Positions 3,847 through 18,684 of a stretch of 64,000 bases of DNA are shown here, piece after piece. How positions within the stretch are numbered: the first letter of the stretch is position 1; each line of letters begins with the position of its first letter. Source of the stretch: Promicromonospora soli (GTDB lineage Bacteria > Actinomycetota > Actinomycetes > Actinomycetales > Cellulomonadaceae). The translations under genes and the position numbers were made by a program. The notes under the pieces are model-generated. The model searched no databases. It saw only the letters and a program-made list of their open reading frames with translations, and was not told the DNA's origin. The stretch covers positions 448,117 through 512,116 of the forward strand of contig NZ_BNAS01000003.1 of the NCBI RefSeq assembly GCF_014653785.1, written 5' to 3'.

Positions 3847-5283
3847 CTACACCCACGCGAGCGCGTCGAGCAGCTTCTGGGCGATCTCTAGGTCGTCCCG
3901 CTGGTCCCGGTCGGCGTCGTCGGCCGGCAGCGCGGCGGCCAGCTCGAGCGCGTCGTTCAGCGGTCCAGCGGGCAGCACGACACCGCGCTGGCGGAGCAGC
4001 CGCACGGCTCCGACCAGCTCGCAGGCGAGCAGCGTCCGGTAGGCGGCGACCGCCCGTTCCGCCTGGACGACGGCCTGCGATGCGAAGCTCGCGTCCTCCT
4101 CGGCGCCGCGGGAGAGCACGACGGTGCCGAGCGAGGCGGGCTGCGCCGCCGCGCGCAGCTCGCCGAGTGCGCTCGCGGCGACGTACTCGACCATCATCAG
4201 GCCCGAGGCGCCCACCTGACCCGTCGCGAGGAACGGCCGGAGCCCGGTGAGGGCGGGCTCGTTGAGCATCCCGATCCGGGACATCACGAGCGGCCCGGTC
4301 TGGGCGAGGGCGAGGTTGCACCCGTCCAGCGCCAGCCCGAGCGCGGCCTGGTGGAAGGCGCCGTGGTGGACCACGGCTTCGCCGGCCAGGTCGAACAGCG
4401 GGTTCTCCTGCGCGACGCCGAGGACCCGGCCCGCCTGCTCGGCCAGCACCCCGAGCGCGTGCGTGAAGGCTCCCTGGCTGATCGGGAACGCCCGCAGCCC
4501 GAAGGCGTCTTGGATCCGGGCCGGCGGCACCGCGGACTGCCCCGTGGGCCCGGCCGGGACCTCCAGCAGGCGCCGCGCACGTTCGGCCACGACGTCCACC
4601 CCGGGGGCGGCAGCGGCTCGCACGGCGGCGGGCGAGAGAACCGACGGGTTGCCGTCGAGCCCGCGGAAGCTGAGCGCGTAGACGGCAGCGGCGGCACGGT
4701 CGAGCCGGCCGAGGGCGTCGACCACGAGGCAGGTGCGCCCGATCGTGAGGGCGTTCGAGCTGATGAACGGCAGCGCGCTGTCGCTGCTCCAGGGCCCCAT
4801 GGGCTCGAGCGGCCCCGTCGCCGGGCGCTCGCCCATGAGGGTCAGGGCGGTGCCGGCCAGTGCCCCGAGGTCGCCGGTACCGATCGAGGCGTGCGCGCGG
4901 ACGGTGGGCAGGGCATTCCCGTTCAGCATCCCCTCCAGCGCGCGCAGCACCGCCGGGTCCACGCCCGACCCGGCCGTGCAGAGCTGGTTGAGCCGCACCG
5001 CGAGCATCGCCCGCACCGCCCGTTCGGGCAGCTCCGGGCCTGCGTCCACCGCGTGGCTGCGCAAGAGCCGGAGCCCGTGGGCATCGTCGTCGACGACGGC
5101 GGCGGACTTGTTCGCGCCCACGCCCGTCGTCCGGCCGTAGATCGGCACCTCCGCGCTCAGCCGGCGCGTCAGCTCGTGCGCCCGGCCCACTTCCTCGATC
5201 GCGGCGTCGGGCACACGCGCGCGCCCGCCGTCGGCGACGGCGACCACGTCCGCCAGTACTGCGCTCCCGCCAAGCTCGATCAT
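3847..5283 (-). CDS. Histidine/aromatic ammonia-lyase family protein with altered MIO triad
   Basis: A 478-residue member of the HAL/PAL superfamily. The loop [12 protein letters not shown] (catalytic Tyr49) and the long helical core are present. However, the segment that normally reads GSVGASGDL is SIGTGDL here (residues 133-139), so the Ala-Ser-Gly triad that cyclises to MIO is Gly-Thr-Gly or, depending on alignment, one residue short. The conserved QDAY tyrosine is Phe261. It may be a MIO-free lyase or mutase, or a binding protein. The start is the ATG at 5283, with GAAAGG 9 bases upstream; a GTG at 5322 is possible. It diverges from the IclR gene, suggesting control by it. Family assignment is firm, substrate unknown. 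Confidence 0.8.
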
Positions 5284-5325
5284 CGGCGCGGCCCTTTCTC
5301 TTGTGTCCCGTGTATCCACCACCTG

Positions 5326-5390
5326 CCATTGTGCCGGTCAGAGTAGTGCCGCCCAGTGGCAAGAGAGTTTTACACAGTGGCAATGTGCTG
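5326..5390. promoter_or_regulatory. Candidate operator region between HAL-like gene and iclR
   Basis: The 197-bp divergent spacer 5284-5480 is less GC-rich than its surroundings and carries two exact copies of CAGTGGCAA (5354-5362 and 5375-5383), 21 bp apart, which is two helical turns. A related ATTGTGCC lies upstream. The arrangement fits a regulator binding one DNA face, plausibly the adjacent IclR protein. No confident -35/-10 pair was identified. Confidence 0.45.
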
Positions 5391-5480: not shown

Positions 5481-6161
5481 ATGGCAGAGGCCGGGACCAG
5501 GACAGCCGAGCGGGTGCTCGCGCTCCTCGCCGTGGTCTGCGAGCGGGGGCGGGCCAACCTCTCCGAGGCGGCCCGCGCCACCGGGCTCGCACCCAGCACC
5601 GCCCTGCGGCTGCTGCGCACGCTGGAGGGCGCGGGGTTCGTCCGCCGGGACGACGACGCCTCGTTCACGCCGGGCGGGCGGATCATCCAGCTCGGCGCGC
5701 AGGCGCTGAGCAACGAGTCTCTTGTCGACCTCGCGCGACCCGCGATGAAGACGCTAGCGGAAGCGACCGGCGAGTCCGTGTACCTGAGCAGCATCGGCCA
5801 CCACGAGACCGCGCTCTACATCGCCATCGTCGAGGGCTCGCACTCGATCCGGCATCGAAGCTGGGTGGGCGGCACCATCCCGCTGGACGGTACGGCCGCG
5901 GGGCAGGCCCTCACCGGCGCGGTCCCGCCCGGGTCCTGGGCGCTCGTCAGGAGCGGCGTCGAGAGCGACGTCACCGGGATCGCCGCACCGATCCAGGTGG
6001 GCCGGCGCGTGGTCGCCGCCATGAGCCTCGTCGTCCCGAGCTACCGGCTGAGCGAGGACGACGCGGCCCGCTACGGGCGGCTGCTCGCCGCCGAGGTCGC
6101 CACCATCTCGTCGGAGCTCGGTGGTCCGGCGGGCCAGAACCTCGAAGGAGCCACGGCATGA
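5481..6161 (+). CDS. IclR-family transcriptional regulator
   Basis: A 226-residue IclR regulator, normally a dimeric repressor or activator that senses a small carboxylic acid. The N-terminal winged helix-turn-helix spans about residues 5-65 ([21 protein letters not shown]), followed by the GAF-like effector domain containing [20 protein letters not shown] and a C-terminal [13 protein letters not shown] segment. I chose the ATG at 5481, preceded 8 bases upstream by GGAGGG. Its stop overlaps the start of the ABC ATPase gene (ATGA), so the regulator is the first gene of the importer/catabolic operon. IclR proteins commonly control hut and aromatic-acid operons. Confidence 0.9.
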
Positions 6162-7279
6162 TCACGTTCGAGCACGTCTCCAAGGTGTACCCCGACGGAA
6201 CGCACGCGGTGCACGACCTCACCTTCGACGCCCCGACCGGCAAGCTGACGGTGCTGGTGGGTCCTTCGGGCTGCGGGAAGACCACCTCGCTGCGCATGGT
6301 GAACCGACTCATCCGTCCCACGTCCGGCGACATCCTGCTCGACGGCGAATCGACCAATGGCATGGACGAGGCGCTGCTCCGGCGTCGCATCGGCTACGTG
6401 ATCCAGCATGCGGGCCTCTTCCCGCACCGCACCGTTCTCGACAACGTCGCTGCGACCCCACGGCTCTCCGGAGCATCCAAGCGCCAAGCGCGGCTGATCG
6501 CCGGTGAGCTCCTCGAACGCGTAGGGCTGCCCGCCACCTTCGCCTCCCGATATCCGTGGCAGTTGTCGGGCGGTCAGCAGCAACGCGTCGGCGTCGCTCG
6601 CGCGCTCGCCTCCGACCCCGACTTCATGCTGATGGACGAACCGTTCAGCGCCGTCGATCCCGTCGTCCGGAGCCAGCTGCAGGACGAGTTCCTGCGACTA
6701 CAGCGCGAGATCGGCAAGACCATAATCATGGTCACGCACGACATCGACGAGGCGCTCAAGCTCGGCGACCAGGTCGCCGTTCTGCGCACTGGCGGCAAGC
6801 TCGCTCAGCTCGCCACCCCCGAGGAGCTGCTGACCGCTCCCGCGGACGCCTTCGTGGCCGACTTCGTGGGACGCGACCGCGGGTATCGATCGCTCGGCTT
6901 CGTCGCCGCCGCTCCCGGTCTCGTGGTGCGCTCCGAACCCTCGGTGCCGATCGGCAGCAGCGTCGAGGACGCGCGGGCCGCCACCGACGACGACTGGCTG
7001 CTCGTCGTCGACGAACGCGCACATCCGCTGGGGTGGGTCGAACCGCGCACACTGCGCGCTCCGATCTCCTTCAGCGACCTCAACCTCAGTGGAACCGTGG
7101 CACACCGCACGGGAACGATGCGCCATGTTCTCGACGCCAGCCTCAGCGCGCCGAGCCGGCGCGGAGTCCTGGTGGACGAGGACGGCGCCCTGGTGGGCTC
7201 AGTGACGGCCGCCGAGGTCGTCGGGTCCCTTGCCGAGATCCACGCCGCCGGCGTCACGACCGGGGGCACCGCCTCATGA
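6158..7279 (+). CDS. OpuC/ProV-type quaternary-amine ABC importer, ATPase subunit with CBS region
   Basis: ATP-binding subunit of an osmoprotectant/betaine-type importer, 373 residues. Walker A (GPSGCGKT), Q-loop, signature LSGGQQQRVGVARAL, Walker B (FMLMDEPFSAVDP) and switch His are all present. After residue 240 there is a CBS-domain region, as in OpuCA, ending VLVDEDGALVGSVTAAEV. The start ATG overlaps the IclR stop and has GAAGGAG 7 bases upstream. It is followed with ATGA overlaps by two permease genes. From this gene on, third-position usage looks slightly less GC-extreme than in the flanking genes, compatible with acquisition, though I have not measured it. Confidence 0.9.
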   Translation: MITFEHVSKVYPDGTHAVHDLTFDAPTGKLTVLVGPSGCGKTTSLRMVNRLIRPTSGDILLDGESTNGMDEALLRRRIGYVIQHAGLFPHRTVLDNVAATPRLSGASKRQARLIAGELLERVGLPATFASRYPWQLSGGQQQRVGVARALASDPDFMLMDEPFSAVDPVVRSQLQDEFLRLQREIGKTIIMVTHDIDEALKLGDQVAVLRTGGKLAQLATPEELLTAPADAFVADFVGRDRGYRSLGFVAAAPGLVVRSEPSVPIGSSVEDARAATDDDWLLVVDERAHPLGWVEPRTLRAPISFSDLNLSGTVAHRTGTMRHVLDASLSAPSRRGVLVDEDGALVGSVTAAEVVGSLAEIHAAGVTTGGTAS

Positions 7280-7926
7280 ACCTCGACTGGATCGTGCGGG
7301 AATCCGACTCCATCCTCGTCCTGCTGGTGTGGCACCTCGGGCTGTCGGTCGTCCCCGTTGTCATCGGCCTTGCCATGGCACTACCACTCGGATGGGTCGC
7401 GCACCGCAGCGGCGCGTTCAAATCGGTAGTCCTCGGGACGACAGGTCTGCTCTACACCGTCCCCTCGCTCGCACTGTTCGTCATGCTGCCGTCGATCCTT
7501 GGCACCCGCATCCTCGACCCCCTCAATGTGGTCGTCGCTCTCACCGTCTACACGGTCGCTCTGCTCGTGCGCACCGTGTCGGACGGCCTCGACTCGGTGC
7601 CGGTGGAGACCGTGCAGGCCGCTCAGGCGATGGGATACCGGACTCTGCAGCGCCTTGTGTCCGTGGAGCTCCCCGTGGCCGTGCCGGTGATTGCGGCGGG
7701 CCTGCGCGTCGCCGTCGTCTCGAACGTGAGCGTGGTCTCCATCGCGGCGCTGATCGGCACCCAGCAGCTCGGGCTGCTGTTCACGCAGGGCGCGCAGCTT
7801 CGATTCCTCACACCGATCATCGTGGGCATCGTGCTCTGCCTGGTGCTCGCGGTCGTGCTCGATGGTCTCGTCGTGCTGCTTGCTCGCAGGCTCACGCCCT
7901 GGACGCCGAGGGCGGTGCACGCATGA
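7276..7926 (+). CDS. OpuC-type ABC importer permease 1
   Basis: A 216-residue integral membrane protein of the OpuBB/OpuCB type with about five to six hydrophobic segments and the cytoplasmic EAA-like loop VETVQAAQAMGYRTLQRLVSVELPVA that contacts the ATPase. The GLLYTVPSLALF segment is typical of betaine and choline importers. The start ATG overlaps the ATPase stop and its own stop overlaps the next permease, so subunits are translationally coupled. The pair of short permeases plus a separate lipoprotein is the OpuB/OpuC arrangement, rather than the fused permease-binding protein known from some ergothioneine importers. Confidence 0.9.
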   Translation: MNLDWIVRESDSILVLLVWHLGLSVVPVVIGLAMALPLGWVAHRSGAFKSVVLGTTGLLYTVPSLALFVMLPSILGTRILDPLNVVVALTVYTVALLVRTVSDGLDSVPVETVQAAQAMGYRTLQRLVSVELPVAVPVIAAGLRVAVVSNVSVVSIAALIGTQQLGLLFTQGAQLRFLTPIIVGIVLCLVLAVVLDGLVVLLARRLTPWTPRAVHA

Positions 7927-8642
7927 TCGACTATCTCCTCGACCCGGCGCACTGGACCGGCAGCGACAGCATCGGCACACTCCTGGTGCAGCATCTGATC
8001 TACACCGGCCTCTCGCTGCTCGTCGCAGCTGTCATCGGGGTGCCGATCGGTCTCTACGTGGGCCATACCGGCAAGGGCACGTTCTTCATCGCAGGTGTCG
8101 CCAACGCTTTGCGGGCCTTGCCGACACTCGGCCTGGTCATCCTGCTGGTCATCGTCATCGCCCCGGCGTTTGCCTCGGAGCTGGCCTTCGTGATCCCCAG
8201 TCTCATCGTTCTGGTGCTGCTGGCCATCCCCCCGATCATGACGAACACGTACGCGGGCGTCCGCGCCGTCGACGCCGCCGCGGTCGACGCGGCGGTCGGG
8301 ATGGGCTATCGGCCGCTGAAGGTGCTCTTCGCGGTGCAGGTGCCGTGCGCACTACCCCTCATCCTGTCCGGCTTCCGCGGAGCCACCCTGCAGGTCATCT
8401 CGACGGCCACGATCGCCGCTTACGTCTCACTGGGCGGTCTCGGCCGGCTGATCATCGACGGCCGAGCGCAGAACGACTACGACCAGATGCTCGCCGGAGC
8501 CGTACTCGTCGCTGCCCTCGCGCTGCTGGTCGATCTCGGCATCGGCCTGATCGGGCGGTTCGCGGTGTCTCCCGGGCTCACCCGCCGCCGCATCCGCGCC
8601 ACTGCCGCTCAACCGGTTCTCGCGACGACTGCGACCGCCTGA
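7923..8642 (+). CDS. OpuC-type ABC importer permease 2
   Basis: Second membrane subunit, 239 residues, with a hydrophobic core and the EAA loop AAAVDAAVGMGYRPLKVLFAVQVPCALP. NALRALPTLGLVILL matches the OpuBD/OpuCD family. It starts in an ATGA overlap with permease 1. The C-terminus is a short polar tail. Downstream there is an 87-base spacer containing three tandem 14-bp repeats before the binding-protein gene. Confidence 0.9.
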   Translation: MIDYLLDPAHWTGSDSIGTLLVQHLIYTGLSLLVAAVIGVPIGLYVGHTGKGTFFIAGVANALRALPTLGLVILLVIVIAPAFASELAFVIPSLIVLVLLAIPPIMTNTYAGVRAVDAAAVDAAVGMGYRPLKVLFAVQVPCALPLILSGFRGATLQVISTATIAAYVSLGGLGRLIIDGRAQNDYDQMLAGAVLVAALALLVDLGIGLIGRFAVSPGLTRRRIRATAAQPVLATTATA

Positions 8643-8729: not shown

Positions 8730-9650
8730 ATGAGAACCCGCCCCGCCCTCGCCCTGGCCGCCCTCGCCGCCACCACTGCCCTCACCCTCTCGGCGTGCTC
8801 GTCGAGCTCCGGCGGAGATCCGCTCGCCGCCGACACGCCCGCTGCGTCGACGGGCGGCATCACCGTCGGGTCCGCCGACTTCCCCGAGAGCCAGCTGCTC
8901 GCCACGATCTACGCCCAGGCGCTCACCGCGGCCGGCGTCGACGCCACCACGAAGTTGAACATCGGCAGCCGTGAGGTCTACATGCCGGCTCTGCTCGACG
9001 GATCGATCAACCTGCTGCCCGAGTACACGGGAGCCACGCTCAGCTACCTCAACAGCGACGCCACCGGCACCGCACCGGAGGACGTGGCCACCGAGCTGGC
9101 CGAGGCTCTGCCGGAGGGAATCGCTATGCTCACGCCCTCCGACGCGCAGGACTCCGACGTCCTCGCCGTCACTCGCGCCACCGCGGAGGAGTACGACCTC
9201 GAGACCATCGAGGACCTCGTCCCCCACGCGTCCGACCTGGTGCTCGGCGGGCCGCCGGAGTGGAAGACCCGGCACGAGGGCGTCGTCGGTCTCGAGGAGG
9301 TCTACGGCCTCACTTTCAAGGAGTTCCGGACCCTCGACGTCGGTGGACCGCTCACCATCAGCGCTCTCGCCAACGGCCAGATCGCCGCGGCCGACCTCTA
9401 CTCCACCAGCCCGGCGATCGAGGAGAACGACTTCGTCTCGCTGGTCGACAACAAGAACCTCTTCCGCGCGCAGAACATCGTGCCGATCATCGCCGAGGAC
9501 CAGGCCTCCGATGAGGTGACGACGGTCCTCGACGCCATCTCGGCGGCGCTCACCACGGAGGACCTGATCGAGATGAACGGCCGTCTCGCCGATGAGGAGA
9601 GCATCGACGACGTCGCGGCCGACTGGCTGAGCGAGCACGACCTCGGCTGA
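8730..9650 (+). CDS. OpuAC-type substrate-binding lipoprotein of quaternary-amine importer
   Basis: A 306-residue extracytoplasmic binding protein. Residues 1-23 are a lipoprotein signal with lipobox LSAC (Cys23). The mature part opens with [22 protein letters not shown] and contains [13 protein letters not shown], both typical of the glycine betaine/choline/carnitine OpuAC family, whose aromatic box binds quaternary ammonium groups. AAAGGA precedes the ATG. A partial, frameshifted paralogue lies at 15095-15843. The ligand is unknown; genomic context suggests a trimethylated histidine derivative. Confidence 0.9.
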
Positions 9651-9699: not shown

Positions 9700-9948
9700 A
9701 TGATCGGAAGCCGCACCGGGCAGGTCTCCGTCGCCGACGGCACCCCGCTCGCCGCGGAGAAGCTCGAGCGTCTGCTGACGAACGACTCCGGCACGGGCGT
9801 CATCCGGCACGTCGACGCCGGCTACGAGCGGGCCATCGAGGTAGCCGAGCAGCACGGAGTCCGCATTCCGATGCTCGAGGCGGCGCGCGCCGCCGCCGAG
9901 CCGGACACCGCGTCGAAGACGCCGGCCGTCGCGGCGCAGAGCGTCTGA
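9700..9948 (+). CDS. Urocanate hydratase (HutU) C-terminal fragment, 82-residue ORF
   Basis: The product matches only the last roughly 60 residues of urocanase: [27 protein letters not shown] and [20 protein letters not shown] are close to the HutU C-terminus, followed by about 20 Ala-rich residues of no recognised origin. The NAD-binding core and catalytic cysteine region are absent, so it cannot be a urocanase. It has its own ATG and an AAAAAGGA ribosome site, and no stop or frameshift. It ends 2 bases before the GTG of the HAL-like gene, so it could serve as a coupling peptide or be a relic of a deleted hutU. The HutU match is from memory of the family, not from a search. Confidence 0.8.
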
Positions 9949-9950
9949 TC

Positions 9951-11486
9951 GTGCACTCCGGCACCACGGTGATTCTCGGCGCAGCCACCACCTCCCTCGA
10001 CGAGGTGGTGGCCGTCGCCCGGGGCGCGCACGTCGAACTCGACCCCGCCGCGCTGGCAGGAGTGGCGCGCACCCACGCCTTGATCGCGGACGTTCTCGAC
10101 TCGGGACGACCCGTCTACGGGCTCACCACAGGAGTGGGCGACCTCTACACCGTCGGGGTGGGGACCGAACGGGTCGCCGATGTCCAGCTTGGCATGCTGC
10201 GCAGCCACGCCAGCGGCGTGGGCGAGCCCCACGACGAGTGCGCCGTGCGCGCGATCATGACCACCATGATCAAGGCGCTCGCGCAGGGGTTCAGCGGCGT
10301 GGGGGTGCGCCTGCTGCAGACGATGGTCGACATGCTCAACAAGGGCGTGACGCCGTGGGCGCCGGCGCAGGGCTCGGTCGGATACCTCACGGCGACCGCC
10401 CATATCGGGTTGGCGGTCTTCGGAGAGGGGCGTTCCTGGTTCGAGGGCGCGTTGCTCCCCGGCGCCGAAGCGCTCCGGCGAGCCGGAGTCGAACGGATCG
10501 AGCCGGGACCCCGCGAGGGACACGCGCTCATCAGCGGTACGTACGAGATCACCGGCGTCGGCGCACTCGCCGTGCACGCGGCCCGGAGACTCGTCGACGT
10601 CGCCGACGCTGCCGGCGCCCTCTCTCTCGAGGTGCTGCGCGGCAACAGCCGCGGCTACGACGCTCGGCTGCAGGCTGTGCGGCCGCACCCCGGCCAGGTC
10701 GAAACAGCCCAGCGGCTCCGGGCGCTCCTCACCTCGAGCGAGATCCTCGCGGCCCACCGCACGCACCGGCTGCAGGACGCGCTCAGCCTGCGGTGCATCC
10801 CCCAGGTGCACGGCGCAGTACGAGACGCACTCACCGAGGTGGAGCGGGTCATCGGGGTCGAGATCAACTCGGTCACCGACAACCCGGTCTTCGTCGTGGA
10901 GGACGGGGAGCTCACCGCCCTGCCCGGAGGAAACGGGCACGGGGCTCCGACAGCCCTCGCTCTCGACTACCTGGCCATCGCCGTGGCCGAGCTCAGCACG
11001 ATGTCGCAGGCCCGTTCCGATCGCCTCACGAATCATCACTACAGCGAGCTGCCGGCCTTCCTCATGGACGGCACGTCGGGCGCGTCCGGCTTCATGATCC
11101 CTCCGTACGCGGCCGCCGCCCTCGCGGGCGAGAACCGAGGGCTCGCCGCACCTTCCACAGTGCACACCGTCTCGACGTCTGCCGGGCAGGAGGACCACGT
11201 CAGCATGGGGACGACGGCGGCGAGGAAGGCCGGCCAGGCGACGGCGAACGCGCAGATCATCGTGGCCATCGAACTCCTGTGCGCCGCGCAGGCCGTCGAG
11301 TTCCACGTGCCGCTGCGCCCCGGCGCCGGCACCGGCGCGGTCTACGACGCCATCCGGTCCCATGTCTCCCACCGCACGATCGACACAGAGATCGCCCCCG
11401 ACATCGAGTCGGTGCGCACTCTCGTCGTCGACGGAACGCTGCACCGCATCATCGCCACCACCGTGAAGGACAACGCGCATGCCTGA
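9951..11486 (+). CDS. HutH-derived lyase lacking the MIO triad (candidate betaine trimethylamine-lyase)
   Basis: A 511-residue protein clearly descended from histidine ammonia-lyase: PVYGLTTGVG (Tyr56), ARLQAVRPHPGQ, VEINSVTDNPVF and SAGQEDHVSMG (Glu414) are HAL motifs. At residues 141-149 it reads GSVGYLTAT where HAL reads GSVGASGDLAPL, so the MIO-forming Ala-Ser-Gly is precisely missing. The QDAY tyrosine is Leu278, and the LINGT asparagine is Ser196 (LISGT). Without MIO it should not deaminate a primary amine. Ergothionase, a HAL homologue that eliminates trimethylamine from ergothioneine, is to my knowledge MIO-independent, and is the best model. It starts at GTG 2 bases after the HutU stub and overlaps the CoA-transferase gene by 8 bases. 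Confidence 0.85.
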   Translation: MHSGTTVILGAATTSLDEVVAVARGAHVELDPAALAGVARTHALIADVLDSGRPVYGLTTGVGDLYTVGVGTERVADVQLGMLRSHASGVGEPHDECAVRAIMTTMIKALAQGFSGVGVRLLQTMVDMLNKGVTPWAPAQGSVGYLTATAHIGLAVFGEGRSWFEGALLPGAEALRRAGVERIEPGPREGHALISGTYEITGVGALAVHAARRLVDVADAAGALSLEVLRGNSRGYDARLQAVRPHPGQVETAQRLRALLTSSEILAAHRTHRLQDALSLRCIPQVHGAVRDALTEVERVIGVEINSVTDNPVFVVEDGELTALPGGNGHGAPTALALDYLAIAVAELSTMSQARSDRLTNHHYSELPAFLMDGTSGASGFMIPPYAAAALAGENRGLAAPSTVHTVSTSAGQEDHVSMGTTAARKAGQATANAQIIVAIELLCAAQAVEFHVPLRPGAGTGAVYDAIRSHVSHRTIDTEIAPDIESVRTLVVDGTLHRIIATTVKDNAHA

Positions 11487-12684
11487 CACGACTCCCTCCA
11501 CCGCTCCGCTGGACGGGGTGAGAGTGCTCGACCTGGCGCGCGTGCTCGCCGGCCCGCTGTGCGCAGCCATGCTCGGTGATCTCGGCGCGACGGTCACGAA
11601 GGTCGAGCTACCCGAGCATGGAGACGACTCCCGGCACTTCACGCCGCACCAGAACGGCGAGAGCACGTACTTCATGCTCCTCAACCGGGGCAAGCGCAGC
11701 ATCACCATCGACCTGAAATCGGAACGGGGGCATGCCCTGCTCCTGAAGCTGATCGAGCAGACCGACGTGCTGATCGAGAACTTCCGGCCCGGTGTCACCG
11801 CCCGCCTCGGCATCGACTGGGAGACCGTCAAGGCCATCAACCCCAAGCTCGTCTACGTCAGCATCTCCGGCTTCGGGCAGAGCGGACCGCTGTCCAAGCG
11901 CGCCGCGTACGACCACATCGTGCAGGCCATGGGCGGGATCATGAGCGTCACCGGTTGGGCCGACGGCCCGCCCACCCGCATCGGCGACGCCGTCGGCGAT
12001 GTCGTCGCCGGGATCTATGGGTCCTGGGGTGCGCTCGCCGCCCTCTTGCAGCGAGCGGCCACCGGAACCGGTCAGCACGTCGATGTGGCGATGCTCGACT
12101 CCATCTTCTCGCTGCAGATGGTGTCGCTGTCCCAGCTGCTCGGCGGCGCCCCACTGCCCGGGCGCATCGGCAACAGCCATCCGATCAGCGCGCCGATGGA
12201 CGGCTACGCGGCCGCCGACGGGCACGTCGTGATCGCCGTGGCGAACGATCCGCTCTTCGCCCGGCTCGCCGGAGCCCTCGGGCAGCCGGAGCTGGTGACG
12301 GACGTGCGCTTCGCGAGCGACCCGGCCCGCATGGCTCATCAGGACGACCTCCGCGCGCTGATCGAGTCCTGGACCTCCGCGCGGTCCGTCGACACCATCG
12401 TCGCCGAGCTCGAGGACGCCGGCGTTCCCGCTGCCCCGATCTGGGACATCGCCCAAGTCGCGGCAAGCGAGCACGCCGCGCACCGCGGTCTCGTGCAGTC
12501 GGTCGAACATCCCGTCGCGGGCGCCGTGGGTGTCGTCCCGCAGCCCGTGCACTTCAGCGCGGCCGCCCGGTCGACGGATCTCGCAGCGCCGACCCTCGGC
12601 CAGCACACCGACGAGATCCTCGCGGACGACCTGGGACTCTCTGCTCAGGAGATCGCGGATCTGCGCGCGAGCGGGGTGGTGTGA
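11479..12684 (+). CDS. Class III CoA-transferase (CaiB/BaiF family)
   Basis: A 401-residue formyl-CoA transferase/CaiB-type enzyme that moves CoA between carboxylic acids through an aspartyl-CoA intermediate. The N-terminal VRVLDLARVLAGPLCAAMLGDLGA and the VLIENFRPG motif are diagnostic, and Asp174 in IGDAVGDVVAG aligns with the catalytic aspartate of formyl-CoA transferase. In this operon it is well placed to activate the unsaturated acid released by the lyase (for example urocanate or thiourocanate). Its ATG lies inside the end of the lyase gene. Carnitine/crotonobetaine metabolism uses the same family, so a different betaine is an alternative. Confidence 0.92.
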   Translation: MPDTTPSTAPLDGVRVLDLARVLAGPLCAAMLGDLGATVTKVELPEHGDDSRHFTPHQNGESTYFMLLNRGKRSITIDLKSERGHALLLKLIEQTDVLIENFRPGVTARLGIDWETVKAINPKLVYVSISGFGQSGPLSKRAAYDHIVQAMGGIMSVTGWADGPPTRIGDAVGDVVAGIYGSWGALAALLQRAATGTGQHVDVAMLDSIFSLQMVSLSQLLGGAPLPGRIGNSHPISAPMDGYAAADGHVVIAVANDPLFARLAGALGQPELVTDVRFASDPARMAHQDDLRALIESWTSARSVDTIVAELEDAGVPAAPIWDIAQVAASEHAAHRGLVQSVEHPVAGAVGVVPQPVHFSAAARSTDLAAPTLGQHTDEILADDLGLSAQEIADLRASGVV

Positions 12685-12686
12685 CG

Positions 12687-13592
12687 ATGAGAGCACCCGA
12701 ACCGACGAGGATCGCCGTGATCGGCGCCGGAACCATGGGTGCCGGCGTCGCCGGCGTCTTCGCCGCCCACGGCCACCCGGTGTCGCTCTACTCCCGTAGC
12801 GGTGCGACGCTCACCTCCGCCCTGACCGCGATCGAGGCGCGCATCGGCGACGCCGTCGATCACGTGACCGTCACGACGGACCTCGCTGCCTGCGCCGAGG
12901 AGGCCGGGTTCGTCAGCGAGAACGTCGTCGAGCAGCTTGAGCTCAAGCGCGCGGTGTTCGCCGAGCTCGAACAGCTCGTGCGCGAGGACTGCATCCTGAC
13001 CACCAACACCTCGAGTGTTCCGATCACCGCCATCGCGGCCGGGCTCGAGAACCCCCGACGCGTCGTCGGACTGCACTGGTTCAATCCGCCGGCCGTGATG
13101 CCCCTGGTCGAGGTCGTTCGCGGCTCAGCAAGCGATGACGTCACTGTCGAGCGGGTGATGGCGCTGTGCGCCGCCATCGGCAAGGAGGTGATCGAGGTGC
13201 GGCGGGAGGTGCCGGGCTTCGTGATCAACCGACTGCAGTACGCGCTGCTGCGCGAGGCGATCGCCCTGGTCGAATCGGGTGTCGCCACCGTCGCCGACGT
13301 CGACCGCGCCGTCGAGACGACGCTGGCGCCGCGGTGGTCGGCGTCCGGCCCTCTGCGTCTGATGGATCTCGCCGGACTCGACACCGTCGAGAAGGTCTCG
13401 GCCGTGATCATGCCCGAGCTCGACACGACATCCGGAGTACCGGCGATCGTCAGCTCGCTCGTCGCCGACGGCGCCCTCGGCGCGAAAGCCGGCCGCGGGT
13501 TCTACGAGTGGACACCCGAGACCCTCGCCTCCGCCGTCGCCGAGCGCGACGACACGGTGCGGGCACTGACCGAGCGGAGGAGCGCACGATGA
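12687..13592 (+). CDS. 3-hydroxyacyl-CoA dehydrogenase family protein
   Basis: A 301-residue NAD-dependent dehydrogenase of the short 3-hydroxybutyryl-CoA/carnitine dehydrogenase type. The Rossmann motif is VIGAGTMGAG (residues 11-20), and the His130-Glu142 dyad lies in GLHWFNPPAVMPLVEVV. The C-terminal domain carries PGFVINRLQYALLREAIAL and GAKAGRGFYEW. Start is the ATG at 12687, two bases after the CoA-transferase stop; an in-frame GTG at 12681 is possible. It would oxidise the 3-hydroxyacyl-CoA made by the adjacent hydratase. L-carnitine dehydrogenase belongs to the same family, so direct oxidation of a hydroxylated betaine cannot be excluded. Confidence 0.9.
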   Translation: MRAPEPTRIAVIGAGTMGAGVAGVFAAHGHPVSLYSRSGATLTSALTAIEARIGDAVDHVTVTTDLAACAEEAGFVSENVVEQLELKRAVFAELEQLVREDCILTTNTSSVPITAIAAGLENPRRVVGLHWFNPPAVMPLVEVVRGSASDDVTVERVMALCAAIGKEVIEVRREVPGFVINRLQYALLREAIALVESGVATVADVDRAVETTLAPRWSASGPLRLMDLAGLDTVEKVSAVIMPELDTTSGVPAIVSSLVADGALGAKAGRGFYEWTPETLASAVAERDDTVRALTERRSAR

Positions 13593-14359
13593 CCGGAGCG
13601 ATCACCTTCGAGCAGGACGGCGCCGTCGCGGTCATCACTCTGAATCGGCCGGAGAAGCGCAACGCCCTCAGTCGCGACCTGCTCCTGCAGCTCGTCGACA
13701 CCCTGCGCATGCTGGACCGCGACGAGACGACCCGGGCGGTGGTGCTCCAGGGAGACGAGCGCGCTTTCGCCGCCGGCGCGGACCTCGGCTCGCTCGGCGA
13801 CTCCGGGGCGATCGAGCTGTACACCAGCGGGTTCAGCGAGCTATGGGACGACGTGGCCGCCATCCGGCTGCCGCTCGTGGCCTCGGTCGCAGGGTACGCA
13901 CTCGGCGGCGGACTCGAGCTCGCGCTCATCTGCGACGTGGTCATCGCGGCTGACAACGCTCAGTTCGGCTTCCCGGAGACCTCGATCGGCATCGTGCCGG
14001 GCGCTGGCGGCACCCAGCGCATCGTGCGCGCGATCGGCAAGCCGATGGCGATGGACCTGCTGCTCACAGGACGGCGCCTGACCGCGGCCGAAGCCCTCAG
14101 CTCCGGTCTCGTGAGTCGGGTCGTGCCCCTGGTGGACCTGACCGAGGAGAGCCGCATGATCGCGGACCGCATCGCGGCCGCCGGGCCTCTGGCAACCCGG
14201 ATGGCCAAGCACGCGGTGCTCACGGCGTTCGACGCTCCCCTCACGGTAGGTGTCGCCCACGAGCGGGCCCTGTCCGCACTCATCGCCGCCAGCGCCGACC
14301 GGAACGAGGGCCTGCGGGCCTTCCGCGCCCGCGACGTGCCCGATTTCGAAGGGCGGTGA
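13589..14359 (+). CDS. Enoyl-CoA hydratase/isomerase family protein
   Basis: A 256-residue crotonase-fold enzyme. The oxyanion hole segment (AFAAGADL and YALGGGLEL) is present, and both hydratase glutamates are kept: Glu110 in GGGLEL and Glu130 in FPETSIGIVPGAGGTQR. True hydratase activity on an enoyl-CoA is therefore plausible. The start overlaps the dehydrogenase stop (ATGA). In the proposed pathway it hydrates the CoA thioester of the acrylate side chain; a retro-aldol cleavage like that of feruloyl-CoA hydratase-lyase is another possibility. No thiolase gene is seen in the window. Confidence 0.92.
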   Translation: MTGAITFEQDGAVAVITLNRPEKRNALSRDLLLQLVDTLRMLDRDETTRAVVLQGDERAFAAGADLGSLGDSGAIELYTSGFSELWDDVAAIRLPLVASVAGYALGGGLELALICDVVIAADNAQFGFPETSIGIVPGAGGTQRIVRAIGKPMAMDLLLTGRRLTAAEALSSGLVSRVVPLVDLTEESRMIADRIAAAGPLATRMAKHAVLTAFDAPLTVGVAHERALSALIAASADRNEGLRAFRARDVPDFEGR

Positions 14360-14363
14360 TCGC

Positions 14364-14522
14364 ATGAATGGTGCGACCGATCTGGGCGACGGTGTCGGTT
14401 CGATCGCCGTCGGTCACCGCGCCGACCTCCACGCGCTCGATGCGCCGTCGGCGACGCACCTGGCCTATCGGCCGGGGACGCCGTTGACCTACGCCGTCTG
14501 GAAGGACGGTCGCCGCTCATGA
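14364..14522 (+). CDS. Imidazolonepropionase (HutI) C-terminal fragment, 52-residue ORF
   Basis: The peptide resembles only the end of actinobacterial HutI: GVGSIAVGHRADLHALD followed by THLAYRPGTPLTYAVWKDGR, the last beta-sandwich strands of the amidohydrolase. All metal ligands and the catalytic barrel are missing. The ATG lies 4 bases after the hydratase stop, and the TGA overlaps the hutD start. It is probably what remains of hutI after its 5' part was replaced by the CoA-pathway genes. The frame remains open, so a translated product cannot be excluded. Confidence 0.75.
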   Translation: MNGATDLGDGVGSIAVGHRADLHALDAPSATHLAYRPGTPLTYAVWKDGRRS

Positions 14523-15079
14523 CTCGGGTGCAGATCCTCCGAGCCGCCTCGCGCCCGGTGAGCCGGTGGCGCAACGGAGGAGGCGAGACCTCCGAGATCG
14601 CCCACCACCCCCCGGGTGCGGAGACGGACTGGTGGTGGCGTGCGAGCATCGCCACGATCACGCAGGACGGGACGTTCTCGCCGTTCCCCGGCTGCGACCG
14701 CGTCCTCGTCCCGCTCGACGGTGCAGTACGCCTCGCCATAGCCGGGACCCCGCGCGATGTGCCGAGACTCGGCGCACTCCGATTCCGGGGCGAGGAAGAC
14801 GTCCGGGCCGTCGACGTGACGCATCGGACCACCGACCTCAACATCATCGTCTCCCGCGACCGCGGCACAGCTGACCTGAAGATCGGCGCCGCGCCAGGAT
14901 CACGACTTGCGCCGAGCCCCGGGCAGAGCCTTCTGGTCGTGGCGCTCTCAGACGATGTCGTCACAGACACGGTTGCACTCGCATACCTCGACGCTGCCCT
15001 CTTCACAGCGGGTGACGAGATCATCATCCGGCATGGACTGGTTGCGGTAATAGAACTCACCGATCTCCGGTACTCCTAA
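14519..15079 (+). CDS. hutD: HutD family protein
   Basis: A 186-residue cupin-like protein of the HutD (Ves) family, which accompanies histidine-utilisation operons and is thought to bind urocanate or a related ligand and limit pathway flux. The hallmark RWRNGGGETSEIAHHPPG is at residues 17-34 and the double beta-barrel pattern follows. The start ATG overlaps the HutI-stub stop. Its survival with two hut stubs argues that the operon's ligand still resembles urocanate. The catalytic function of HutD is not established in any organism I know of. Confidence 0.88.
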   Translation: MTRVQILRAASRPVSRWRNGGGETSEIAHHPPGAETDWWWRASIATITQDGTFSPFPGCDRVLVPLDGAVRLAIAGTPRDVPRLGALRFRGEEDVRAVDVTHRTTDLNIIVSRDRGTADLKIGAAPGSRLAPSPGQSLLVVALSDDVVTDTVALAYLDAALFTAGDEIIIRHGLVAVIELTDLRYS

Positions 15080-15094: not shown

Positions 15095-15843
15095 CTCACC
15101 GCCTCCCTGGCCCTGCAGGACGCCGACGTCGACGTCGACGAGAAGTTCAACATCGGTAGCCGCGAGGTCTACATCGAGGCCGTCCAGGACGGCTCGATCG
15201 ACCTCGTCCCGGACTACGCCGGCTCCCTGCTCAAGTACCTCGACACCAAGGCCACCGCGAGCACCACCGAGGACGTGCTCGCCGCGGGCGGGGAGGTCCT
15301 GCCCGACGACCTCACGATGCTCGACGCCTCGGACGCGCAGGACAAGGGCGTGCTCGCGGTGACGCAGGAGACGGCCGACAAGTACGACCTGGAGACCATC
15401 TCCGACCTCGAGCCGGTGGCCGGCGAGATCTCTCTCGGCGGCCCGCCGGAGTGGAAGAAACGGTCAGCGGCGTCGTCGGCCTGGAGGAGGTCTACGGCCT
15501 GAAGTTCAAGGAGTTCGTCAGCCTGGACGCTGGCGGGCCGCTCACCATGACGGCGCTGACCTCCGGCCAGGTGCAGGCGGGCGACATCTTCAGCACCGAC
15601 CCGGGTATCGCCGAGAACGACCTCGTGTCGCTGGAGGACGACAAGTCGCTGTTCGCCGCCGAGAACATCCTGCCCATCGTCCGCACCGACAAGGTGGACG
15701 ACACCATCACCACGACGCTGAACGACGTGTCCGCGGCGCTGACCACTGAGGACCTGATCGAGATGAACGGCCGTGCCGGTTCTGGCGAGGCCCTCGCGGA
15801 CATCGCGAAGGACTGGCTGACCGACGCCGGCCTGCTGAAGTAG
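15095..15843 (+). pseudogene. Truncated, frameshifted OpuAC-type binding-protein gene
   Basis: The region encodes a paralogue of the binding protein at 8730: [34 protein letters not shown] and [11 protein letters not shown] in one frame, then [15 protein letters not shown] to [10 protein letters not shown] in another. One base is missing near 15461-15465 compared with the intact gene. The signal peptide, lipobox and first lobe start are absent. Homology begins about 15 bases after the hutD stop, which marks a recombination junction. The C-terminus to the TAG is otherwise well preserved, so decay looks recent. Confidence 0.88.
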
Positions 15844-15945: not shown

Positions 15946-18684
15946 TCAGCCGACCCGGACCGTCGTGGGCGTTCCGACGACGAGCGGGGCGATCGTCACC
16001 TTGTCGATGTCGGGAGCCCAGGCCGAAGGGTTCCCGATCCGGAGGTCGCCGGTGCTCGTGGTCAGCGTGATCGGCACCGTCCGCTGCCAGAAGCTGGTCC
16101 ACGAGTAGGTGTAGCGGAAGAAGGCGGAACCCACGGGTGTCGCCTGCGCTCCCTCCGTCACGACGGCCTGACGGTCGACCACCTGCGGGTTGTAGTCGTG
16201 CCGCCCGGCCGTCTCGGCGTTCGCGTAGTGGACCACGAGGTCGTAGTCACCAGGAGCGTCGAACCCGTCGCCGCGGGGGATCGCTATGTGGTTGTCGCTC
16301 CCCATGCCTACCCAGCCCACGTACTTGCCGCCGGAGGCGTTCGAGCCCGACGCGGCGTCCACGCTCACCACTGCGGCGTCCCCGCCCAGCGGCAGGTCCT
16401 CGGCCTCGAAGGTCGACGCCGCCGCGTCGCCGGCCGGCGCCCGCGTCACGGTCACCGACTTCACGCGGACGCCGCGGTTCGACCGCAGCTCGAGCTCGTT
16501 GATCCCTTCGGTCAGGTGGGCACGGACCGTGGTGCGGCGGTGCCCGCCGTTCGGCACCTGCACCGCCGGGAGCGCGCGGCCCCCGAGACTGAGGCGCAGG
16601 TCGGACGCGCCGGTGGTCTGGTACTCCACCGCGACGTCGTAGTAGCCGGTCTCCATCGCGGTGAGGTAGGCGTCGGCCCGCTGGCCTGAGCCCGCGATGC
16701 CGCCGAAGCCGCGCGTACCCGAATCCCAGGAGAGGCCCGCCCCGCCGTAGAAGCGCAGGGTGCTCGCCGGGTAGGTGGTCGGCTCACCGTCGGTGATGTC
16801 CGTCAGCACGAACTTGTCCAGCGTGATGTCCGAGTTCGGCAGCACCTGGCTCCCGTTCTGGCTCGCCCGGACGGACAGGACATGGGTGCCCGCGGTGAGC
16901 TGCACGGAGACCTCCGTGCTGCCCCGGTACTGCCACCGGGAGGTGGCGTTGAGTGCGAGGTCCGCCGTGTACTGGATGGTGGTCCGGTGCGCGCCGTCGA
17001 CGAAGAGGGCGTGCCGGCCGGCCGAGCCCGGCGTCGCGCCGATGACCTGGAACCGGTAGGTGCCGGTGCGGGGCACGGTGACGGTCCAGTCGGCCTTGGA
17101 GGTCGGCTGGTTGAACGAGCCGACGTCGTGGCTCCCCGAGGCGAGGAACTTCCAGCCGCCGCCCGCCTGCGGGTCCTGGAAGTAGGTCCGGGCAGCAGTG
17201 AGCGCCGTGTCCTCGGCCTCCACGCTGGTCGACCAGACCGGGTCCGCCGTGATCGCCCGGTCCTGCGCGGGCGTGACCACCACCTGGTAGGCGGCGTACC
17301 GGTCGTACGTCGGCACCGTCAGGTTCAGCTTGCCTTCCGTCACGCGCGCCCCGTCGACGGCGTGGACGACGCGCGGGGTGCCGGCGAGCCCCTCGGCGCC
17401 GGTGACTGTTACCTCGCGGACCTCGACGTCCACGGTGTTGCCGAAGACGGCGTGGGAGAGGCCGCGCAGGTCGAGCTGCACGTCGGAGTCGGTGCCGCCG
17501 TAGAGCACCGTCGCGCGGCGGTTGGCGGCGTCGATCGCCCCGATGCCCTGGAGGCTGTCGACGGCGTTCAGCTCGGGCGGCGTCACCTTGACGGTCTGCG
17601 ACCCGGCCAGGTCGCCGTACCACTTGAACATCCACCAGCCGCCGTTGGCCCCGTTCGGCCGGGCGCTGTTGTCGGAGAAGTTGCCGGCGTAGTTCCAGTA
17701 GGCGGTCTGCGAGTCGACTTTGGTGTCCTCGAACATGGAGAACCACTGGATGAGCTGGCCGGGCACGCCCATGTCGCGGAGCATGCCGTACTCGGTGATA
17801 TTGACGTGGATCGGCGAGACGCCCACCTCTTGCTCTAGCGCGCGGTAGTCGGCGAAGTGCGTCCGGTACGTGGAAAGGTTGTTGATGCCGAGCTCGTGCC
17901 AGATGAAGACGTCGGGAAGCACGTCGTGCTGCTTCGCGAACGTGAGGAAGTCCCGTGACCGCTCGGGCTGCCAGCGCGCGTCGCCGGGGCCGCCGATCCG
18001 CGCGGGCGCCAGCCCGTGGCGGGCGTAGACCTCCTGGATCTTGTCGTGCACCGCCTTCCAGTCGGTCAGGAAGGTGTCACGCATCGTTGGCCAGTTCTGG
18101 TACCAGATGCCGTCCGGCTCGTTGAAGGGGATGAACAGGTACTCCTCGGGGTGGTCGGACTGCGTGGCGACTACCTCCACCATGAGCTCGACGACCTCGA
18201 GGTAGTCCCAGACGCCGTTCGGCTCCTCGACGTACTCCCCGGTGGTCTGGTCGTAGGTGCGCACGTCACCGACGCGCACCCCGCGGTGGTACGGCCAGTC
18301 GGGGTAGTGGTCCTGGATGTAGATCGCGAGCTCCTCGCCGTGCTTGGCGAAGAAACCGTCCTCGATCTTGAGGATGTCCCCGCTCGGGTGCTGCGTCCCG
18401 AACGGCGGCTTCTGCGAGGAGTTGGTGATGTGCGCGCCGTTGATCAGTGCCTGCGTGGGCGCGCCCTCGTCGCCGAACCCGTAGAGCGTGCCGGTCGCGC
18501 CGCCCCGGAAGGCACCGGTCGTGGCGCCAAAGTCCACCGCGAGGCCTTCGGGCTCGGCCGCGGCCGACGGAGCGACCGTGAGTGTGGCTGCTACCAGGAC
18601 TGTCACTGCAGTGCCGCTCCATCCTCGCCGTCGCCTGGATCGGCCTTCGAGCTTAGTCTGATCTGCGCTATCAGGATTGCTCAC
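15946..18684 (-). CDS. Secreted multimodular clan GH-A glycoside hydrolase, copy 1
   Basis: A 912-residue exported enzyme. Residues 1-43 are a signal peptide with an RRRR stretch and a PSAAA cleavage site. The catalytic TIM barrel spans about residues 50-400, with a likely acid/base Glu189 in FIPFNEPDG and nucleophile Glu298 in NITEYG; WHELG (Glu264) is also conserved. It resembles GH39-like families, but I cannot fix the family. A beta-sandwich and at least two CBM6/35-like modules follow (about 485-640 and 770-905). It is very similar over its whole length to the neighbouring gene at 18941. A LacI-type operator lies about 120 bp upstream. The substrate may be a galactose-containing plant polysaccharide, by context. 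Confidence 0.85.
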   Translation of the reverse strand: MSNPDSADQTKLEGRSRRRRGWSGTAVTVLVAATLTVAPSAAAEPEGLAVDFGATTGAFRGGATGTLYGFGDEGAPTQALINGAHITNSSQKPPFGTQHPSGDILKIEDGFFAKHGEELAIYIQDHYPDWPYHRGVRVGDVRTYDQTTGEYVEEPNGVWDYLEVVELMVEVVATQSDHPEEYLFIPFNEPDGIWYQNWPTMRDTFLTDWKAVHDKIQEVYARHGLAPARIGGPGDARWQPERSRDFLTFAKQHDVLPDVFIWHELGINNLSTYRTHFADYRALEQEVGVSPIHVNITEYGMLRDMGVPGQLIQWFSMFEDTKVDSQTAYWNYAGNFSDNSARPNGANGGWWMFKWYGDLAGSQTVKVTPPELNAVDSLQGIGAIDAANRRATVLYGGTDSDVQLDLRGLSHAVFGNTVDVEVREVTVTGAEGLAGTPRVVHAVDGARVTEGKLNLTVPTYDRYAAYQVVVTPAQDRAITADPVWSTSVEAEDTALTAARTYFQDPQAGGGWKFLASGSHDVGSFNQPTSKADWTVTVPRTGTYRFQVIGATPGSAGRHALFVDGAHRTTIQYTADLALNATSRWQYRGSTEVSVQLTAGTHVLSVRASQNGSQVLPNSDITLDKFVLTDITDGEPTTYPASTLRFYGGAGLSWDSGTRGFGGIAGSGQRADAYLTAMETGYYDVAVEYQTTGASDLRLSLGGRALPAVQVPNGGHRRTTVRAHLTEGINELELRSNRGVRVKSVTVTRAPAGDAAASTFEAEDLPLGGDAAVVSVDAASGSNASGGKYVGWVGMGSDNHIAIPRGDGFDAPGDYDLVVHYANAETAGRHDYNPQVVDRQAVVTEGAQATPVGSAFFRYTYSWTSFWQRTVPITLTTSTGDLRIGNPSAWAPDIDKVTIAPLVVGTPTTVRVG

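Follow-up and report, generated by a model that had tools for sequence, protein, structure and literature searches.

A MIO-deficient lyase family of actinobacteria as a candidate route from substituted histidine to urocanate

Analysis of a 64,000-nucleotide stretch of the Promicromonospora soli genome (hereafter the window) reveals a protein, P0001, that is predicted to adopt the HAL fold and, judging by its sequence, belongs to a real MIO-deficient subfamily spread across many actinobacterial genera. Such P0001-type relatives of histidase in soil actinobacteria, often still found together with histidine-breakdown genes and an importer, probably open a modified histidine, and do so by a chemistry other than that of histidase. 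Our leading reading, which we hold tentatively and at somewhat less than even chance, is that P0001 is a MIO-free lyase that converts an N-substituted histidine, with hercynine as the best candidate, to urocanate; the substrate is the least certain part of this explanation. The features concerned are collected in Table 1.

Table 1. Features of the window, with positions counted from its first nucleotide
Feature	Position	Strand	Remarks
P0001, MIO-deficient HAL-fold lyase (predicted)	3847..5283	-	478 aa from ATG; AlphaFold mean pLDDT 92.0
Phe261 (QDAFGLR; Tyr280 of P. putida HAL)	4501..4503	-	Tyr 23, Phe 18, Leu 1 of 42 aligned members
Ser175-Ser176 in place of histidase Asn195-Gly	4756..4761	-	identical in 42/42 aligned members
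Loop ASIGTGDL at the MIO position	4867..4890	-	residues 132-139 from ATG; Gly135-Thr136-Gly137
Conserved operator-like element between P0001 and IclR	5346..5384	.	repeated TTGCCACTG with GTAAAA; putative function
IclR-family regulator	5481..6161	+	97% identity to Promicromonospora panici
ABC importer ATPase, betaine/osmoprotectant (QAT) type	6158..7279	+	
ABC permease	7276..7926	+	
ABC permease	7923..8642	+	
Substrate-binding protein, OpuAC family	8730..9650	+	EgtU (ergothioneine) closest among solved sequences; altered cage
Urocanate hydratase relic, C-terminal ~54-60 residues, own ATG	9700..9948	+	open frame of 82 codons
P0002, the window's other HAL-fold protein, with the triad missing	9951..11486	+	loop GSVGY---LTATAH
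CaiB/BaiF-type CoA-transferase	11479..12684	+	
3-hydroxyacyl-CoA dehydrogenase	12681..13592	+	
Enoyl-CoA hydratase family protein	13586..14359	+	
HutD-family protein	14519..15079	+	
Frame-broken second substrate-binding protein relic	15203..15840	+	two pieces with 82% and (the longer piece) 94% identity to the L039 (Promicromonospora panici) binding protein

The open reading frame of P0001 spans positions 3847-5322 of the minus strand (491 aa), with a possible upstream GTG start at 5322; the ATG at 5283 is the better start and gives the N-terminus MIELGG, as in the orthologues at loci L039 and L042. P0001 matches Lyase_aromatic (PF00221) with 269.9 bits against a cut-off of 27.3, while its NCBIfam hutH score of 205.3 bits lies far below the cut-off of 539.15. 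Curated models give histidine ammonia-lyase as the best label for the three family members tested, in every case under the cut-off. The host genome contains three PF00221 matches, namely P0001, P0002 in the same window, and a canonical histidase with a CSG triad on another contig (L001, loop GSLGCSGDL), the gene of which adjoins an intact urocanate hydratase gene. Because of this canonical histidase, P0001 is not the host's sole histidine candidate.

The structural model of P0001 finds ergothionase (PDB 6s7j) as its top Foldseek match (E 3.0e-25), in a near tie with a histidase as the next (7.2e-24). Alignment of the model with ergothionase by VIA-align gives a Z of 42.7 and an rmsd of 2.6 over 472 residues, tied with tyrosine aminomutase (Z 42.6-42.7) and Thermoplasma histidase (42.3) and ahead of Pseudomonas putida histidase (40.8-41.1).

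The sequence at the MIO position reads ASIG-TGDL, as the preliminary description of this DNA had noted. Compared with GSLGCSGDL of the host's canonical histidase, it is one residue shorter and has no Ala-Ser-Gly triad; Gly135-Thr136-Gly137 stands where the histidase pattern GSxG(A/C)SGDL has its triad. In an alignment of 42 family members (P0001 of the window and 41 from the best 80 of at least 573 related loci), Gly135, Thr136 and Asp138 are identical throughout, making Gly-Thr-x-Asp the constant motif, whereas Gly137 is replaced by Ala in 4 of the 42 and the same position is Ser in L014-L019. With identities to P0001 reaching down to 45% among the aligned members, the conservation of the three constant residues is taken to exceed chance. 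An order-level alignment covered 14 of the at least 17 orthologues recognised in the order. According to PMC3903478, MIO enzymes conserve the ASG tripeptide strictly, its Ser-to-Ala substitution lowers activity more than 1000-fold, and Ser-His is a histidase signature.

Apart from the triad, the histidase active site is largely kept. Specifically, Tyr49, Ser76-His77, Gln258, Arg264, Phe310 and Glu395, which correspond to Tyr53, Ser-His83, Gln277, Arg283, Phe329 and Glu414 of P. putida HAL, are identical throughout the 42 aligned members. With the triad gone and the other active-site residues invariant, the family looks like an imidazole enzyme without an electrophile and not like a decayed copy. 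From these features we infer that P0001 carries no MIO-type group, and a MIO-free state of the family is well supported by the alignment. Phe261 in place of the QDAY tyrosine, to which the preliminary description had also drawn attention, is present in P0001, but its use as a family marker was dropped because the position varies between Tyr, Phe and Leu (Table 1).

The P0001 family shares with histidase its fold, the Ser-His signature, most active-site residues and hut neighbours, and differs from it by the missing ASG/CSG triad and Asn195, by an importer of its own, by forming a separate clade and by scoring under the hutH cut-off. Ergothionase of Treponema denticola, described as a trimethylamine lyase without MIO in PMC13405746, likewise combines the HAL fold with a loop SIG-x-GD that is one residue shorter, and retains the Tyr, His, Gln, Arg and Glu. 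Its SSIG-EGD and SCNA segments bring both the shortening and the Ser for Asn195 that are common to the P0001 family. All 42 aligned family members have the Asn of its GVGxN[KR] motif, but L152 has GVGAAR. Unlike P0001, to which it is about 24% identical, ergothionase carries Glu in place of the Thr in a loop of equal length, and has a lysine in IQKTF, which we take to be catalytic, where P0001 has Tyr367 (Glu366-Tyr367). The MIO-free principle thus has a precedent in ergothionase, whose structure is solved.

A scan of the genome collection confirmed at least 573 related stretches, the best 80 of which were kept and looked at; by their titles, these 80 are actinobacterial (Promicromonospora, Mycobacterium, Microbacteriaceae, Streptomyces, Amycolatopsis and others). 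A tree of 51 rows was built after removal of the loop and Ser-Ser columns, with 25 P0001-type rows chosen for spread, the truncated L121 left out and L164 (annotated hutH, loop GSLGY) relabelled P0002-like; the tree program flags long branches and odd letter composition, Treponema ergothionase included. In this tree, the P0001 family forms one actinobacterial clade with support 100/100. Together with ergothionase and further MIO-deficient proteins it makes up a larger group (96/92), outside which canonical HutH and P0002 fall. For groups named after the tree had been inspected, the AU test rejects the P0001 family together with canonical HutH (p = 0.002), in line with the earlier proposal of a MIO-free subfamily. 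It also rejects P0001 together with P0002 (p = 0.004), so the two HAL-like genes of the window represent different subfamilies. The P0001 family with ergothionase (p = 0.137) is neither rejected nor demonstrated, and P0002 with HutH is not rejected (p 0.19). A single MIO loss for all MIO-deficient classes is present in the best tree with support 66/3, which neither demonstrates nor rejects it.

IclR regulator and importer neighbours recur in the family loci. The preliminary description had proposed to look among proteins with a GTGDL motif for a clade with such neighbours, and the clade described above has them. In particular, a four-gene importer of the osmoprotectant type (ATPase, two permeases and binding protein) adjoins the P0001-type gene in all 16 loci from other genomes of the order, one of which (L161) spans only 5.4 kb, versus none of 20 canonical hutH loci, made up of the host's own and 19 picked among the matches listed (2 with ATPase matches only). 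The reference proteins of this comparison were from P0001- and P0002-type loci, and the neighbour counts rest on tblastn. Furthermore, GTAAAA occurs in 12 of the 15 spacers between P0001-type and IclR genes that could be aligned (1 deviating, 2 too short to tell; the sixteenth locus, L061, gave no spacer). This conserved element between the divergent genes supports the shared IclR control region that had been claimed for the window.

Of the best 80 of at least 573 loci, 54 have the full importer cassette, 35 a HutU homologue no more than 10 kb away, and 59 one or the other. The same best 80 loci have IclR in 39, RpiR in 26, HutF in 30, HutI in 22 and canonical HutH in 9 (CSG-type frames were seen in 8), and an MFS transporter in 9, the one tested being nearest the aromatic-acid type and under its cut-off. 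The remaining 21 of these best 80, some on short contigs, have neither a full importer nor a HutU homologue in the stretch covered. At locus L042, the hydratase is a true HutU (915.9 bits over a cut-off of 375), its score as thiourocanate hydratase (667.8) being under 930, and HutI, HutF (formimidoylglutamate deiminase) and an amidohydrolase are also over their cut-offs. Thus HutU and later hut genes lie near family loci; in the window, HutU is represented by the relic alone. Among the genomes of the order, at least 17 have the family, and all 17 have HutU over the cut-off versus 111 of 198 genomes overall, which is weak support, the 17 falling in five genus codes.

The window also holds traces of its own history. 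The urocanate hydratase relic, which scores best with hutU, sits between the binding protein and P0002, and its best match among 37 HutU proteins, a set from which the host's own intact HutU was absent, is the HutU of Microbacterium marinilacus (L071; 49 of 60 residues, 82%). In L071, a single stretch carries a P0002-type HAL, HutU, the importer, IclR, a P0001-type HAL and canonical HutH. P0001 and the IclR regulator are 92% and 97% identical to their counterparts in Promicromonospora panici; the importer proteins of the window are 59-66% identical to those of P. panici versus 71-76% to those of L071. From these importer identities and the relic of a second binding protein downstream, it appears that P0001 lost its original importer to a P0002 module that brought in its own importer and hydratase. 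P0001 and P0002 thus seem to belong to two modules now side by side in the window, and not to be a pair that diverged together. As the importer in the window is of the P0002 type, its ligand need not be the substrate of P0001. Farther along, the window encodes two proteins in tandem (15946-18684 and 18941-21682) that resemble each other and are 912 and 913 residues long; both have CBM35-like matches, the second under the cut-off.

P0002 lies 4.7 kb from P0001 and, with a loop three residues shorter, likewise departs from the canonical MIO sequence, as had been noted for the pair; it belongs to a MIO-deficient class separate from the P0001 family. P0002-type proteins of Rhizobium, Agrobacterium, Sodalis and Klebsiella plasmids resemble P0001 in the absent triad and the adjacent QAT-type importer, and differ in the loop GSVGY---L, in SGT (GGT in Klebsiella) for NGT, and in their clade. 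The order importer, HAL, CoA-transferase, dehydrogenase, enoyl-CoA hydratase of the window is found again in Agrobacterium, Rhizobium and Sodalis, with the CoA-transferase and one permease absent from the gene table of the Rhizobium record. A CoA/beta-oxidation route for P0001 was rejected, since the CaiB, dehydrogenase and enoyl-CoA hydratase genes come after P0002; they occur in only 2, 1 and 2, respectively, of the best 80 of at least 573 P0001-type loci.

On a Klebsiella quasipneumoniae plasmid (NZ_CP092408.1, 15160-36668; L035), the P0002 type is the only HAL listed in 21.5 kb, preceded by a QAT-type importer and accompanied by hutU, hutI, hutG, HutD, hutC and formimidoylglutamate deiminase. 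The hutU product is a true urocanate hydratase (1019.6 bits), and this hut cluster independently ties a MIO-deficient HAL to urocanate breakdown. Among the matches listed, 25 come from Klebsiella plasmids and are roughly 59% identical to P0002.

Further MIO-deficient HAL-like genes were seen along the way. A Priestia megaterium plasmid gene annotated hutH (L164:1459-2997) has the loop GSLGY---LNHQ and no triad, and additional classes are represented by L119, L120, L122 and L021. The HAL-like protein of Sinorhizobium meliloti pSymA has an N-terminus resembling a signal peptide and ergothionase as its nearest solved sequence. In R. leguminosarum, a MIO-deficient HAL-like gene lies beside hutC and a MaoC-family dehydratase, and one in Sinorhizobium lies with LLM flavin oxidoreductases; the order itself holds another MIO-deficient relative. 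In one genus of the order (L155-L160), a third, very divergent HAL-like gene is found about 4 kb from the P0001-type gene, with the loop GNGAA-GEIIPLA in the three aligned (L156, L158 and L160).

Ammonia leaves poorly and the beta proton of histidine lacks acidity, which is why histidase depends on MIO. In the reading we prefer, P0001 would act on a histidine that already carries a substituent on its alpha-amino group, with hercynine (N,N,N-trimethylhistidine) as the first candidate, and the substituted amine would be removed by base-catalysed elimination to give urocanate, which the ordinary hut enzymes would carry on to glutamate. With a good leaving group, such a lyase would need no MIO electrophile, just as ergothionase does without one, and the divergent IclR gene, the QAT-type importer and P0001 may constitute one inducible uptake-and-degradation unit. 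We infer urocanate as the product from the hut neighbours and the relic in the window. The preliminary description had left the chemistry of the MIO-free subfamily entirely open; the subfamily stands, and its chemistry can be narrowed, since neighbours and relic point to urocanate and ergothionase is a known MIO-free relative. Hercynine is ranked first on the imidazole-type pocket, the missing electrophile, the EgtU-like binding protein and the linkage to urocanate hydratase, while the presence of canonical HutH in 9 of the best 80 of at least 573 stretches argues against plain histidine.

Hercynine is made as an ergothioneine intermediate by Mycobacterium and Streptomyces. As family members occur in both genera, a hercynine lyase there would need tight control. 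In the host genome, no match to EgtD exceeds the cut-off (42 versus 290.9 bits), so self-made hercynine provides no argument in this organism. In the PMC full-text literature, a scope without subscription journals and no proof of absence, we found no description of the P0001 clade.

Several observations speak against the preferred reading. Tyr367 stands at the position of the ergothionase lysine, 21 of the best 80 of at least 573 loci show neither the full importer nor a HutU homologue in the stretch covered, and the tree neither rejects nor demonstrates P0001 and ergothionase as nearest relatives. In addition, the importer binding proteins have lost the betaine cage. According to PMC9732360, an aromatic cage holds ergothioneine in EgtU. 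We compared 56 binding proteins, namely that of the window, 51 from L038-L118 and 4 of the P0002 type from proteobacterial plasmids. They share with EgtU/OpuC-type importers the binding-protein family, an aromatic residue at 293 (Tyr for Phe, 56/56), and Glu375 and Arg379 (54/56). Unlike EgtU, they lack two of the four cage aromatics and hence the cage of a betaine importer: Tyr341 is replaced by Asp in 56/56, Tyr443 is changed in 56/56, to Glu or Gln in 55, and Thr275 is replaced by Arg in 56/56. The acidic and amide residues favour a protonated amine over trimethylammonium. The importer type, which alone is no proof of a quaternary amine, was dropped after this alignment as proof of a betaine substrate.

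The same replacements, including the invariant Arg at the Thr275 position, are what recommends a MIO-free lyase acting on a histidine derivative with a protonated amine, for instance N-methylhistidine, N,N-dimethylhistidine or an opine of histidine; the product would once more be urocanate. The hut linkage fits this equally well. Such amines, however, are poor leaving groups without an electrophile, and none of the results names a substrate of this kind; we regard this possibility as less likely than the preferred reading, but as a serious rival to it.

An improbable alternative is that P0001 is a paralogue without catalysis, whose role is to sense or store histidine or urocanate, or to modulate HutH. 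A second, non-functional hutH exists in Pseudomonas fluorescens, and the missing triad, together with canonical HutH alongside in 9 of the best 80 of at least 573 stretches, would suit such a role. Yet the identity of Tyr49, His77, Gln258, Arg264, Phe310 and Glu395 in all 42 aligned members goes beyond expectation for a silent copy, and it is common for family loci to have the importer in a stretch that shows no canonical HutH. Nor is P0001 at all likely to be an ergothionase that removes trimethylamine from ergothioneine; the fold, the loop and a binding protein nearest EgtU among solved structures fit such an enzyme, but the hydratase tested at a P0001-type locus (L042) is urocanate and not thiourocanate hydratase, the ergothionase Lys is Tyr in P0001, and the ergothioneine cage of EgtU is altered. 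Least credible is the ethylidene MIO analogue that the preliminary description had entertained, in which Gly-Thr-Gly cyclises and P0001 is an ammonia-lyase: Gly135 and Thr136 are invariant as it would have them, but the loop is one residue shorter, the histidase Asn is gone, the third residue varies to Ala and Ser, and the Thr position is occupied by Glu in ergothionase, whose loop has the same length.

Coming back to the substituted-histidine lyase, its most specific form is that the whole clade is a second hut entrance, a hercynine (histidine-betaine) trimethylamine-lyase producing urocanate directly and served by an importer of its own, in which acidic residues have reshaped the cage. We consider this form possible but doubtful; if true, it would close the route of hercynine breakdown and add a source of trimethylamine. 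More generally, if modified histidines are what the family opens, the hutH label conceals a second way into histidine catabolism. For hercynine, from which ergothioneine is made, a single purified enzyme would then be enough to put such a route to the test. The P0001 family would also offer a natural series for how a lyase may work after losing its electrophile.
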